This document shows positions 40,574-64,000 of a DNA stretch of 64,000 nt, in pieces. A model generated the notes under the pieces. The model searched no databases and had not been told where the DNA came from. It saw nothing but the letters and a program-made list of their open reading frames with translations. Both the position numbers and the translations under genes were made by a program. The stretch's first letter is position 1. Each line of letters begins with the position of its first letter. This DNA is from Stutzerimonas degradans (GTDB lineage: Bacteria; Pseudomonadota; Gammaproteobacteria; Pseudomonadales; Pseudomonadaceae): NCBI RefSeq assembly GCF_024448505.1, contig NZ_JAMOHV010000002.1, positions 186,001-250,000 on the forward strand. Reading direction: 5' to 3'.

Positions 40574-40647
40574 GCGGGCGTCGTATAATGGCATTACCTG
40601 AGCTTCCCAAGCTCATGACGAGGGTTCGATTCCCTTCGCCCGCTCCA
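40574..40647 (+). tRNA. tRNA-Gly (anticodon CCC)
   Basis: 74-base tRNA with encoded CCA. The acceptor stem GCGGGCG (40574-40580) pairs with CGCCCGC (40637-40643). The anticodon stem-loop is TGAGC-TTCCCAA-GCTCA with anticodon CCC, and the T-loop is GTTCGATTC. The D-arm has the TCGTATAATGGCATTA form usual for tRNA-Gly(CCC). Phage genes follow, so its 3' end is the likely prophage attachment core. Confidence 0.95.
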
Positions 40648-59573: not shown

Positions 59574-60602
59574 TTACACCACGTCTGCAAAGATGAAGGC
59601 ATCGGGTTCCAGTAGGCCTGCCAGCGGGGCGCTTTGCAGCTTCAGCCAGCGAGCCGAGGGCTCCTGAGTGACCCAGGATTTCGGGAAGCGAGCGGCCTCG
59701 ACCATGCCACTCTCGATCGCTTCCAAGTCCTGGATGGCGCCGTAGAGCATGGCGTTGCGGGTGTTGGACGCGCCGAGGATGAGGCCGCCAGCTGCGATCA
59801 TCGGCTGCTCGTCGCCGGCGTCATCCAGGTACCACTCATCGTAGGCATAGAGGTCGATGCCCGGGTCGTTGAGGTAACCGAGGTAGGTGACGCCGTCCGG
59901 CAGTTCCTGCGGGACGATCAGGCCCAGGTCGACGCGGCGGGTGTTGAGTTGCTTCATCACCATGTCGTTGCTCTGGAAGGCGTCGGTGGCCTCGCCGCTG
60001 AGTACGGCGACGTTGGCGGTGCGGCCGCTGTCCTTGGCGATTTTGCGTTTCCAGGCGCGCAGGTTGGCGAGCGGGTCGGAGGCGGCGGCGGTCCAGACGT
60101 CGGTGGTGAGGGTGATCTTGTGGTCGGCAGCCATCAGGAAATCGATGGTGTCGTCCACGCCCTCGCCCAGAACGCGGATTTGCCCGGTGCTCAGGGCCTG
60201 AGCGCACATCCATTCCTCGCGGCGGGCGATCTGGTCGTCGAGGTCGGCCAGGTCCTTACCGAGCTGGCGGCCGGCGCGCTCGAGCGGGGTGGTGGTGGCG
60301 TAGGGGTTGTCACCGGCCGCGCGCTTAAGGATCAGCTCAGCGGTGGTTTCGAGCTTCGGCTGGATGTACGGCGGCGCGTAGGTGTTGCTGGCGTAGCCGT
60401 CGCGCAGGACGGTGCTGCCGGGCAGGCGCGGGTGCACGAACGGCGCCATTTTGCGCTGGCCTTTGATGATGTCGATGTCGACGTTTTTGGTGGCGAAGGT
60501 GCGCGGCACGCCGGCGTTGAAGAAGGTCTGCTGCAGGAAGCGGCGGGCCGGCTTCATCTGCTCGACCGCTTCGAGCATGGTGCGAGTGTCGAAAATATCC
60601 AT
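59574..60602 (-). CDS. Major capsid protein, gpE family
   Basis: 342-residue capsid protein of the lambda gpE family: FFNAGVPRTFATKNVDIDII, RKMAPFVHPRLPG, and ARREEWMCAQALSTGQI are typical. It builds the icosahedral shell, with decoration protein D made from the next gene upstream. Confidence 0.93.
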   Translation of the reverse strand: MDIFDTRTMLEAVEQMKPARRFLQQTFFNAGVPRTFATKNVDIDIIKGQRKMAPFVHPRLPGSTVLRDGYASNTYAPPYIQPKLETTAELILKRAAGDNPYATTTPLERAGRQLGKDLADLDDQIARREEWMCAQALSTGQIRVLGEGVDDTIDFLMAADHKITLTTDVWTAAASDPLANLRAWKRKIAKDSGRTANVAVLSGEATDAFQSNDMVMKQLNTRRVDLGLIVPQELPDGVTYLGYLNDPGIDLYAYDEWYLDDAGDEQPMIAAGGLILGASNTRNAMLYGAIQDLEAIESGMVEAARFPKSWVTQEPSARWLKLQSAPLAGLLEPDAFIFADVV

Positions 60603-60617: not shown

Positions 60618-60968
60618 TCAGCGGACGAACAGGGAAAGGGGGCGCAGCGCGGCTTTCACGCTGGCGAGGGTGTGGCCGGTGCCGAGGGTCAGCTGACTGC
60701 CGAGCACTTCGCCGGTCAGGCGGACGATGCCGGGAGCGGCGCCAGCGGTGGTGTCGATGTCGGCATCGAGGATGGCGGCCGGGGTCTGGGAGCCGTCGGT
60801 GGCGGCCGACAGGGACAGGATGTATTCACCGCTGGCGGTGACCTGGCCGAGCACGGCGCCGGCGCTCAGCACTTGGGTGGCGCCGATGGTTACGCCATCC
60901 AGCACGATGGGGAAATCGCCCGCGCTGAGGCTGTCGGGGGTGTAGGTGGAAACGGTGGGGTTAGGCAT
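60618..60968 (-). CDS. Head decoration protein, gpD family
   Basis: 116-residue protein with gpD-like pattern: AGDFPIVLDGVTIGATQVL at the N-terminus and TGEVLGSQLTLG later. It trimerises on the expanded capsid and stabilises it. It lies between the protease and the major capsid gene, as in lambda. Confidence 0.88.
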   Translation of the reverse strand: MPNPTVSTYTPDSLSAGDFPIVLDGVTIGATQVLSAGAVLGQVTASGEYILSLSAATDGSQTPAAILDADIDTTAGAAPGIVRLTGEVLGSQLTLGTGHTLASVKAALRPLSLFVR

Positions 60969-60980
60969 GGTGGGCTCCTA

Positions 60981-61385
60981 TCAGCGGCGGGTGGCGCCAG
61001 CGACGATGGCGCTGACGGCGGTTTTGCGTTCGACGGTGGCCTGATCGCTGCCGGGCGGCGTGGCGGTAGTCGTGCCGGCGGCGTCGGCCTTGATGCCGGC
61101 GAGGTTGATGCCGCGATCAGTGGCGGCTTTGAACAGGGTCAGGGCGGCGGCCTCGACGCTGCTGCCGTTTTCGATGGCGGTAGTGATTTCCTGCTCGAAC
61201 CCCTTGGCGGCCAGGGCGTTGATGCCATTGATGCGCGCGCGCTCAGCCTGGGTCGCGGTAGCGCTGGCTTCGGCCTTGATGGCTTCGACGTCGACCTGTT
61301 CGGCGGCGGCGATCTGGAGGGTTTGCGGGTCGGTGCCGGCGGCGATGGCTGCCTGCAGCTCGGCCGTGGTGCGGACGATGGTCAT
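60981..61385 (-). CDS. Nested scaffold protein (Nu3-like), internal start
   Basis: 134-residue product from an in-frame internal ATG at 61385 (MTIVRTTAELQAAIAAG). An AGAGGAAA ribosome site precedes the ATG by about eight bases inside the protease gene. Helical, Ala/Glu-rich, as expected for scaffolding. Lambda makes Nu3 in the same way within gene C. Inference from the ribosome site and domain border. Confidence 0.72.
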   Translation of the reverse strand: MTIVRTTAELQAAIAAGTDPQTLQIAAAEQVDVEAIKAEASATATQAERARINGINALAAKGFEQEITTAIENGSSVEAAALTLFKAATDRGINLAGIKADAAGTTTATPPGSDQATVERKTAVSAIVAGATRR

Positions 61386-62210
61386 GCTGGGTTTCCTCTG
61401 GTTGGCGGCCGGGCTGGCCAGTTCGGTAATCAGTGATTCGAGGGAGCCGAGGCGATGGGCTAGGCCGGACTCGACGGCGGCGGCGCCGACCTTGAGGCCG
61501 CCGTGGTCGCCCATGCCTGGCACGTCGGCGACATTGACGCCGAGGTTGCGCGCGACCTTGGCGACGAACACGTCGGAGAGTGCGTCGATGGTTTTGGCGA
61601 TCTCGGCGCGGCCGGCGTCGGTGCCGATATCAGGCCGCTTGTTGGGGGCGTTGCTGCTGGTGATGGTGTAGCGCTTCTCGCCGGCAGCAGCCTCACGGGT
61701 GACGACCTCGACCACCACGCCGATGCTGCCGACCAATGCGGTGTCGTCGATGACCACTTCGTCAGCGGCGCTGGCGAGCCAGTAGGCGCCGCTGGCCATG
61801 CTGCCGCCGCCGTAGGCCTTGATCGGCTTTTTGCTGCGGGCGGCGTAGATCATCTCCGACAGTTCGTTGATGCCGTTGGCCTCACCGCCTGGGCTGTCGA
61901 TGTTGAGGACGATGCCGCGCACCTTGGGGTCGTCGAGCGCGGACTGAAGGTCAGTGGCCAGCTCCTGGGTGCTGGTCGCCCCGCTGATGCGGGTGAACAG
62001 GTTGGCGTAACGCATGATCGGCCCGGTGATGGGGATAACCGCCACGCCATCACGCAAGGTGACGGTGCGGGTGTTGTCCAGCGGTTTGCCGAGGCGCGCC
62101 TCCAGCGCTTCGGGGTCGCCCTGGCGATCAGCGATGGCCATCAGGTTGTCGAGGGCGTCGGGCAGCATCAGCCAGGGCCGCGATGCGGCCAGCTCGAAGG
62201 CGCGGTGCAT
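60981..62210 (-). CDS. S49 capsid maturation protease with scaffold domain
   Basis: 409-residue ClpP-fold protease of the S49 family, lambda gpC type. Catalytic Ser140 is in GGSMASGAYWLAS, and Lys191 in SSNAPNKRPD completes the dyad. The C-terminal third (from about 276) is the scaffold, rich in Ala/Glu helices. The start at 62210 has GGAGG upstream and is preferred over the longer frame. It cuts itself and scaffold in the prohead. Confidence 0.92.
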   Translation of the reverse strand: MHRAFELAASRPWLMLPDALDNLMAIADRQGDPEALEARLGKPLDNTRTVTLRDGVAVIPITGPIMRYANLFTRISGATSTQELATDLQSALDDPKVRGIVLNIDSPGGEANGINELSEMIYAARSKKPIKAYGGGSMASGAYWLASAADEVVIDDTALVGSIGVVVEVVTREAAAGEKRYTITSSNAPNKRPDIGTDAGRAEIAKTIDALSDVFVAKVARNLGVNVADVPGMGDHGGLKVGAAAVESGLAHRLGSLESLITELASPAANQRKPSMTIVRTTAELQAAIAAGTDPQTLQIAAAEQVDVEAIKAEASATATQAERARINGINALAAKGFEQEITTAIENGSSVEAAALTLFKAATDRGINLAGIKADAAGTTTATPPGSDQATVERKTAVSAIVAGATRR

Positions 62211-62226
62211 ATGCAATCCTCCGAGG

Positions 62227-62580
62227 TCAGACGCCTGCCGGCTGAGCCACAGCGCGTACAAGCGCCATGATTCCAGTCTGGATATCGGTTTTGCCGATAG
62301 CGGCCCAGCGCAGCGGCTCAGCAGCCTGGAACCGACGAAACTCGTGACACTCATCAGATGCCCCGGTGTGTTCGGTGTACGGCGCGCCGAGGTACTCGCG
62401 GCCCTCCATCGAACGGCGAGCGGCCAGTTGTTTGGTTTCCAAGTCAGTACCCAGGCGGCCAGCTAGTTCGGCCTGCAACTGCAGCAGTTCCGCACCTTTG
62501 GCCTTGATCCTGTTCATCAGATCAACCTCTTCCTGGCGCAGATCGCGGTAGCCGCTGATCTTGCGGTGTTGGTTTTCCAT
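62227..62580 (-). CDS. Acb2/Tad1-like hairpin protein (putative cyclic-nucleotide sponge)
   Basis: 117-residue protein whose N-terminal part matches the Acb2/Tad1 helical-hairpin family (HRKISGYRDLRQEEVDLMNR) and whose C-terminus has IGKTDIQTGIMALVRAVAQP. Tyr11 and Lys26 fall at the numbers I recall as essential for cyclic-dinucleotide binding in Acb2 of phage PaMx33. Acb2 sequesters CBASS signals and Tad1 relatives Thoeris signals. A middle insertion (TDLETKQLAARRSMEGREY) makes it longer than PaMx33 Acb2. It is set between the portal and the protease genes. Confidence 0.78.
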   Translation of the reverse strand: MENQHRKISGYRDLRQEEVDLMNRIKAKGAELLQLQAELAGRLGTDLETKQLAARRSMEGREYLGAPYTEHTGASDECHEFRRFQAAEPLRWAAIGKTDIQTGIMALVRAVAQPAGV

Positions 62581-62584
62581 GCTG

Positions 62585-64000
62585 TTATTCCTCGTCGGGT
62601 TGCTGCGGCGCCGCTGCGGGCTCCGGGGTGGCGCCCTTGGGTGGGCTGTAGAGGCCTGCGGCGCGGCGCTGATCGACCTCGCGCAGACGCTGGCGATAGA
62701 CCTGCTGCCAGGGCTCGCCAGTCATGGCGGCGGTCTCCAGGGTTTCGTTGCTGACGCCGATTTCGATGCGTTTGCCGGCAGCGTTGGCCTCTTTCAGTTC
62801 GTCGATGGCGCCTCGCGCCGGACCGATCCAGATTGCCTGGCAGTAGGCTTTTCGGCGGGCCGGGTCGGCGTAGCCGGGCAAGTTGATCAGGCCGCGGGCT
62901 ACGGCTTCGTCGATGATCAGTTCGCGGCTGGGCTGGCAGAAGTCGCAGGCGAGCCACCAGCGGCGCAGGCTGTAGAAGCGCCAGGCTTGCAGCATGGCAG
63001 CGCGAGCGGCGCTGTAGCTGCTGTTGTAGTGCAGCAGCAGTTCGTCTGCGGGCAGCTCCAGGGCGGCGCCGATTTCCTTGACCACGGCCATGAAGAACGG
63101 ATCGAACTGAGCGTTGGGCCGCGCCGGGTTGGCGATCACCGGTTCCTCGCCGCGCCCCAAGTCGACCACGGCGCCCTCTCCCAGCTGCAGGTCGCCAGGC
63201 TCGGAGGCTACGTCGGTGTATTCATCGCCCAGTGCGGACAACGGAAGGTTTCCGGCGTCGAACTCGCTGTTCTTCTTGATGAATACGGTGAACATGGCGG
63301 AGATGACGGCGGCCATCAGTTCGGCGCTGCTGTAGCGCTCCAGCTTCTGCAGCGGCTCGAGGACCGGCGACAGGTAGGGCGCGCCGCGTTTCTGCCCGGG
63401 GCGTTCCTTGTCTGCCATGACGTGCAGCACGCGGCGGCGGCCAGTGGTTGCGCCGAATACGGGCAGGCGCTGCCAGCTGAGCGGTGTGCGGCGATTGAGT
63501 TCGTTGGCGTAGCCGGTGCAGACGTGGTACGCGACAGGCGCGCCGAGGGTGTCAAACTCGACGCCATCGACCAGCCATTCGCTGTCCAGCATGCTGCCGG
63601 GGTTGCTGACGCGGTCGGTTTCAATCAGTTGCAGGCGGGTGCTGTAGAGGCACCCTTCCCGCTCGGCGTCCGGGGTGGCGATGAACACGTCGCCACCCAC
63701 CATAGCCGAGACAAGCACCAGCGCCTGGAGCTGGTAGTGGTTGAGACTGGCCTCTGCGTCACACTCGCGCGGGTCGTCGGCGTACAGCGACCAGAGGCGG
63801 TCGAGCTGGGCATTTAGGCGCTCGGCAGCTTTTTCGTCGATACCTAGCGCTTCGTGGTCGACCTGGGCGCGGCAGACGAGCCCGGTACCGACCACGTTGG
63901 TGCGCAGGCGCATGATGGCGGCGCGCGCTACCAGGTGGTTGCGCATGGCATCCCGCGAGCGAGCGACCAGCATGCTGCGTTCGCCGCTGTTGAGGTCGCG
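62585..64000 (-). CDS. Phage portal protein, lambda family (5' end outside window)
   Basis: Lambda gpB-type portal; at least 471 codons in the window, with the frame open through the right edge, so the N-terminus is missing. Typical segments are RLQLIETDRVSNPG, VLHVMADKERPGQKRGAPYL, and LLHYNSSYSAARAAMLQAWR. It forms the dodecameric ring for DNA packaging. It is followed closely by the Acb2-like gene (four bases). Terminase should lie just upstream, beyond the window. Confidence 0.93.
   Translation of the reverse strand, partial: RDLNSGERSMLVARSRDAMRNHLVARAAIMRLRTNVVGTGLVCRAQVDHEALGIDEKAAERLNAQLDRLWSLYADDPRECDAEASLNHYQLQALVLVSAMVGGDVFIATPDAEREGCLYSTRLQLIETDRVSNPGSMLDSEWLVDGVEFDTLGAPVAYHVCTGYANELNRRTPLSWQRLPVFGATTGRRRVLHVMADKERPGQKRGAPYLSPVLEPLQKLERYSSAELMAAVISAMFTVFIKKNSEFDAGNLPLSALGDEYTDVASEPGDLQLGEGAVVDLGRGEEPVIANPARPNAQFDPFFMAVVKEIGAALELPADELLLHYNSSYSAARAAMLQAWRFYSLRRWWLACDFCQPSRELIIDEAVARGLINLPGYADPARRKAYCQAIWIGPARGAIDELKEANAAGKRIEIGVSNETLETAAMTGEPWQQVYRQRLREVDQRRAAGLYSPPKGATPEPAAAPQQPDEE

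Follow-up and report, generated by a model that had tools for sequence, protein, structure and literature searches.

Acb2-family proteins sequester the signalling molecules with which bacterial antiviral immunity raises the alarm. Solved members are the Acb2 proteins of PaP2 and PaMx33 (8h2j, 8h2x and 8ixz), with a PaP2 chain of 93 residues, and Vs.4 of phage T4 (7uq2), with a chain of 89 residues. In PaMx33, the acb2 gene adjoins DNA-replication genes and a terminator and lies outside the head operon. According to a review (PMC12043709), Acb2 has a higher affinity for cA3 and cAAG than for dinucleotides and acts in lysogenic induction rather than in maintenance. The same review likens Tad1, known from a C. 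botulinum prophage (PDB 8smd as given in PMC11722364), to Acb2 as a hexamer with trinucleotide sites, but describes for it an N-terminal sheet of four beta strands and a pocket for gcADPR. For T4 Acb2, PMC12657218 reports that the substitution Y8A disrupts cyclic dinucleotide binding and that F82C weakens binding.

An Acb2 family member in Stutzerimonas degradans

The window, i.e. the whole stretch of 64,000 nucleotides from S. degradans that was analysed, contains an open reading frame on the minus strand (62227..62580) that starts with ATG, ends with TGA and encodes 117 amino acids plus the stop. A first-pass annotation had placed this reading frame between portal and protease genes and assigned its product to the Acb2 family. 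The frame and its position were borne out, the strand, which had not been given, being the minus strand, and the family assignment is in agreement with matches in Pfam, PHROG and the PDB. The profile search that had been proposed gave 59.1 bits for PF24729, the Acb2/Tad1 hairpin family, where the cut-off is 27 (E 4.9e-16, profile positions 1-58 of 58), PHROG 717 was matched at E 2.2e-26, and PaP2 Acb2 (8h2j) was found in a PDB sequence search at E 2.7e-22, all far above what chance would give. This last alignment comprises two blocks, residues 1-42 and 78-115, and leaves the middle of the protein without a match. With a profile built from 80 relatives, T4 Acb2/Vs.4 (7uq2) was reached at E 2.9e-6, and the Acb2 proteins of PaP2 and T4 are the nearest solved relatives among the sequence and fold matches listed. 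PADLOC gave no match to the sponge protein, and NCBIfam gave nothing above its cut-off. Judged by its sequence, the 117-aa protein is a member of the Acb2/Tad1 hairpin family and, among the matches listed, is nearest to Acb2; since this family is already known, the S. degradans gene is a further member of it and a common length variant.

The AlphaFold2 model of the monomer, computed from 80 sequences, has a mean pLDDT of 92.5 and a pTM of 0.77. Helices are predicted at residues 4-7, 16-58, 76-87 and 89-112 and a small beta bridge (62-63/66-67) in the turn, which corresponds to the short N-terminal helix and two long antiparallel helices of the Acb2 fold. Residues 1-10, a part of the ligand site, are the least certain stretch of the model (mean pLDDT 61). 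The top eight rows of a Foldseek search are Acb2 or T4 Vs.4 chains (best E 6.6e-6, five rows with E ≤ 0.001), and a BFVD fold search gave nothing at E ≤ 0.001. VIA-align matched the model to 8h2j with a Z of 9.8 and an rmsd of 2.0 over 90 residues, and to the T4 protein with a Z of 9.1. Since unrelated helical hairpins score up to Z 8.8, the fold taken alone is weak evidence; it is the sequence match that carries the Acb2 case, and the fold agrees with it and adds little. The two-helix hairpin foreseen for this protein was recovered by the monomer model, Foldseek and VIA-align, and no other fold was indicated.

The conservation of putative ligand-site residues was determined in 110 aligned proteins, consisting of the window protein and all 109 distinct relatives collected. 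Tyr11 (codon 62548..62550, minus strand), Lys26 (codon 62503..62505, minus strand) and a C-terminal TDIQTGIMALVRAVAQP block, to which the first-pass annotation had drawn attention, are present at the positions it named. The profile alignment to 7uq2 pairs Tyr11 with T4 Tyr8 and Lys26 with a T4 lysine. Lys26, which we take to be a key Acb2 residue of the dinucleotide site, is invariant in 110/110 proteins together with Arg91, Met105 and Arg109; Arg91 is the equivalent of PaP2 Arg67, presumably the arginine of the trinucleotide site. Besides Tyr11, Lys26 and this arginine, the protein shares its N- and C-terminal motifs and the hairpin fold with the PaP2/PaMx33 proteins. The similarity to T4 Vs.4, which likewise includes profile and fold matches, amounts to about 22-25% identity, and the position of T4 Phe82 is occupied in the alignment by Ala112, which counts against the sponge reading.

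Tyr11 is kept in 109 of the 110 proteins, the exception being L094 (5001-5321) with a cysteine, which may reflect an error in sequencing or a natural variant that no longer binds dinucleotides. A Tyr11 that is invariant throughout was seen only in an 80-row alignment (the window protein and 79 of the 109 relatives) and was rejected on the full set. At the C-terminal kink, which is otherwise strongly conserved, VGQQ replaces VAQP in four relatives (L067, L109, L115 and L119).

A cassette-like gene in the prophage head operon

The acb2-like gene is preceded by a portal gene of the lambda family (62585..63973; PF05136, E 9.6e-92; PHROG 21) and followed by the gene of an S49-type head maturation protease (60981..62210; PF01343, E 6.8e-19; PHROG 53, E 2.1e-88). 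The genes for the head decoration protein D (60618..60968; PF02924, E 8.1e-17) and the major head protein (59574..60602; PHROG 29, E 3.5e-92) lie further downstream, all of them on the minus strand. Only 4 nt separate the portal stop from the acb2 start, and the last portal codons contain a ribosome-binding site of the GAGGA type that serves acb2 (62588..62594, minus strand, from the junction sequence). The automatically called protease reading frame (start 62354) overlaps acb2; the true start is likely the ATG at 62210, which has a GGAGG motif ahead of it (62218..62222, minus strand). No promoter-like site was found within 60900-64000, which together with the portal and protease flanks supports the suggested place inside the head operon. 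The earlier description of this setting was correct in putting acb2 between portal and protease, but overlooked both the cassette-like nature of the gene and the CBASS of the host.

To compare this arrangement with that of related phages, the best 80 of 180 viral contigs with a related portal (77-93% identical in the best segment) were surveyed. The portal-protease junction is without acb2 in 79/79 readable relatives, the remaining contig (L145) stopping before the junction, and no acb2 match was found anywhere in the 80 stretches. In the 79 empty junctions, the protease starts between -17 and +5 nt from the portal stop. When the junction is aligned with its acb2-free counterparts in L135 and L136, the insert extends over approximately 62212..62583 (minus strand) and comprises acb2 with its leader of 3 nt and the present ribosome-binding site of the protease; the edge is shifted by 1-2 nt in comparison with L138 and L139 and is indistinct in comparison with L193 and L210. 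In the empty site of L136, the bases that now serve acb2 as ribosome-binding site stand directly before the protease; the cassette appears to take over the former protease site and to supply a new one. The GC content of the insert is 0.605, compared to 0.653-0.680 in three head genes, and the GC3 of acb2 is 0.68, compared to 0.83, 0.87 and 0.88 in these head genes. From the sequence, acb2 looks like a cassette that was recently added to the head operon. It lies on the same strand as the genes for the decoration protein and the major head protein, two genes ahead of them.

A similar order is found in distant phages. In L116, where the portal match has 26% identity, portal, acb2 and a Clp-type protease follow each other in the same order, and L123 has reading frames of sizes like those of this order in L116. 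In L121 (portal 42% identical), acb2 precedes the terminase, and the protease match starts shortly after the portal match. As so distant a phage as L116 shares the order, acb2 may have entered the slot between portal and protease on more than one occasion. With the window portal as probe, a recognizable portal was detected just upstream in 2/122 acb2 loci (L116 and L123), a count that is no estimate of the frequency of acb2 in head operons because this probe misses unrelated phage types.

Other copies of the gene have different surroundings. Closely similar forms occur in Vibrio phage VP882 (p26, 117 aa, 78.1% identity), where the gene follows a DNA adenine methylase gene, in Aeromonas phage HJ05 (116 aa, 77.6% identity), and in Pseudomonas phage JBD67 (108 aa, 65.5% identity), where it stands among the head genes of a Mu-like phage; all three differ from the S. 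degradans prophage in phage type and neighbours. Pfam searches with ten hand-picked proteins from seven loci identified a Mu Gp36 protein, a lysozyme, a D12 methylase or a DUF1804 protein next to other acb2 copies. As neighbours and positions differ among copies, acb2 moves between phages and between slots.

Some further features of these relatives were recorded. In VP882 (L044) and in L053, acb2 directly follows the adenine methylase gene, perhaps as a shared accessory pair. Many Xenorhabdus genomes have short acb2 forms of 75-80 aa (L018, L020-L024, L026-L028 and L030-L037, of which L020 is not from Xenorhabdus), and X. lircayensis, X. vietnamensis and X. beddingii have two acb2 copies on different contigs. 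In several Pseudomonas phage records (H7-H11 and others), the acb2 match falls on a feature named 'NAD/FAD-utilizing enzyme', a name that was probably given to acb2 or to a neighbour in error.

The head operon belongs to an element of approximately 44 kb bounded by a 44-bp direct repeat. One copy of the repeat lies in the 3' part of a tRNA-Gly(ccc) gene (40604..40647, plus strand), and its partner, outside the window (C2:270751-270794), adjoins an integrase gene (PHROG 1, E 1.4e-37). Between the repeats lie genes for spanin, tail fibre, tail, head and terminase proteins, a CII-like regulator and a cytosine methylase. The last of these, a C-5 cytosine DNA methylase gene in the early region of the acb2 prophage (L133 6223-7998), is a second possible anti-defence gene.

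The hairpin-tip insert and alternative functions

The protein exceeds the PaP2 chain, which has no tip insert, by 24 residues. The first-pass annotation had described this middle insertion as unusual; its size was confirmed, but the 109 distinct relatives include 80 with a length of 100-120 aa, 27 of these with at least 115, and 29 with at most 93, so that the insertion is not unusual, even though the sample leans towards the query (it includes the best 80 of 221 viral matches, all 80 of them long). An oddity peculiar to the 117-aa protein could therefore be rejected. Long forms were also found at 13/42 bacterial-genome loci and in the named phages VP882, HJ05 and JBD67. The additional residues are predicted to form a small turn at the hairpin tip (residues 59-75, codons 62355..62406, minus strand). 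In a set of 23 distinct forms of at least 116 residues, from which the divergent L106 was left out, pN/pS is 0.08-0.17 in the conserved regions, indicating purifying selection, 0.38 at residues 44-58, the helix extension that precedes the turn, and 0.46 at residues 59-75, the most variable region. The tip insert is best read as tolerated length variation, situated, in the model, away from the dinucleotide pocket.

An insert that acts as a functional cap, alters ligand range or assembly and sets the forms of 115-120 residues apart as a distinct subclass is, in our view, improbable. Gly60, Gly65, Gly73, Glu77 and Cys78 are invariant in the 23 long forms, and the turn is confidently predicted (block pLDDT 93 for residues 61-70 and 97 for 71-80); however, the turn is also the least conserved region, a 43-residue helix separates it from Tyr11 in the model, and the invariant glycines may merely shape it. 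Far less probable still is that the protein is Tad1-like and sequesters the gcADPR of Thoeris, as the first-pass annotation had also considered. Although Pfam joins Acb2 and Tad1 in one hairpin family, the high-ranking sequence and fold matches are all Acb2 or T4 Vs.4 chains without a Tad1 chain among them, which is weak evidence since the absence of a row excludes nothing. Furthermore, the model has no counterpart of the N-terminal sheet and gcADPR pocket of Tad1, its strands being limited to the two-residue bridge in the turn, and TIR_2, the only TIR model tried for Thoeris, had no match in the host genome at E 0.01, which argues against gcADPR as the ligand. The location between portal and protease might suggest that the protein serves in head structure or assembly and has no more than the hairpin in common with Acb2, the least probable reading of all: the readable relatives of the head module (from the best 80 of 180) uniformly do without acb2, the copies of other phages adjoin lysozyme, D12 methylase, Mu Gp36 or DUF1804 genes or the PaMx33 replication region, and the protein has the N-terminal motif of Acb2 proteins with proven function. 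Family membership by sequence, the matching predicted monomer fold, the conserved ligand-site residues and the cassette-like insertion into a prophage head operon are, as a whole, best explained by a gene that very probably encodes an Acb2-family cyclic-oligonucleotide sponge.

The resident CBASS and the putative role of the sponge

PADLOC detected a type II CBASS (Cap4, CdnD-like cyclase, Cap2 and Cap3) in the host genome (G000), outside the window at C15:109930-114866 (L131 6931-11867). Its four adjacent genes match a SAVED-PDDEXK effector (3e-210), the cyclase (1.3e-164), an E1-E2 protein (2.4e-231) and a JAB protein (7.5e-62), and because CD-NTase, effector, E1-E2 and JAB genes adjoin in one operon, the system can be regarded as complete. 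The cyclase matches 7ljl, a 'Cyclic AMP-AMP-GMP synthase', over its full length (E 1e-174), and the effector matches Cap4 7yib (E 3.8e-206). At the motif given as QGSI for cAAG enzymes (PMC13424991), the host cyclase has QGSV. The products of E. cloacae CdnD are cAAA and cAAG, and Cap4 responds to cAAG, according to PMC9117128. Since the cyclase and Cap4 resemble cAAG-type proteins and cAAG is a reported Acb2 ligand, the sponge and its probable target occur in one genome. On the basis of these similarities, the likeliest target in the present host would be the cAAG-type signal made by the resident type II CBASS. mCpol of Panoptes, searched with a single model, had no match in the host genome at E 0.01.

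A competing explanation, which we rate slightly below an even chance, is that Acb2 works against hosts other than the present one and that the coexisting CBASS is incidental. Among 56 genomes of the source genus, acb2 exceeds the cut-off in 2 (5 at E ≤ 0.001), and the CdnD-like cyclase of the host occurs in 2, only one of which also has acb2. SMODS cyclases were found in 7/56 of these genomes and in 7/37 acb2-bearing genomes, the latter representing 38 of 42 loci after omission of L021, L026, L027 and L041 from repeat genomes. Thus, no enrichment of CBASS in acb2 genomes was seen, and the coexistence of sponge and CBASS may be due to chance. Of the two source-genus genomes with acb2 over the cut-off, only the S. 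degradans genome has a SMODS match, and another genome (G023) has the same cyclase and two more SMODS matches without acb2. That the nearest relatives of the cassette are found in unrelated phages and genera also favours other hosts, whereas the closeness of the resident CBASS to solved cAAG enzymes, together with cAAG as a reported Acb2 ligand, favours the host's own system. The presence tables are consistent with both.

A sponge that meets the resident, putatively cAAG-type CBASS would act as follows. Upon prophage induction or infection, a late transcript would be made, from which, as the gene spacing suggests, acb2 would be translated along with portal and the downstream head genes, so that the sponge would appear at the same time as the capsid proteins. 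By analogy to known members of the family, the protein would assemble into the Acb2 hexamer and sequester cyclic di- and trinucleotides without cleaving them, and Cap4 or other CBASS effectors would presumably stay off until lysis. The reported action of Acb2 at lysogenic induction suits the place of acb2 in this genome. As a capsid mutation helps an acb2-deleted phage to escape CBASS, according to another review (PMC10419184), co-expression of sponge and capsid may be apt, although this is speculation. We also put forward, tentatively and with more doubt than belief, that capture by the head operon couples synthesis of the sponge to that of the suspected CBASS trigger, as an antidote dosed with capsid synthesis, and that long forms use their structured tip to tune either assembly or, with regard to cAAG, the trinucleotide site.

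A limited literature search, outside the primary Acb2 papers, yielded no earlier report of Acb2 in a head operon, and within the literature searched the combination of a clean cassette at the portal-protease junction with a resident, putatively cAAG-type CBASS is new to us. With this locus, the settings of a known anti-CBASS sponge come to include the head operon of a prophage integrated at tRNA-Gly. It is also an unusually clean case of acb2 movement, as relatives with portal fragments of up to 93% identity have no acb2 at the junction. The proposed production of sponge and capsid from one message bears on a point that the literature leaves open, namely the escape of acb2-deleted phage from CBASS with the help of capsid mutations (PMC10419184). 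Finally, a single isolate that combines the sponge, its prophage and a probable target would permit a direct test of whether prophage induction needs the sponge.
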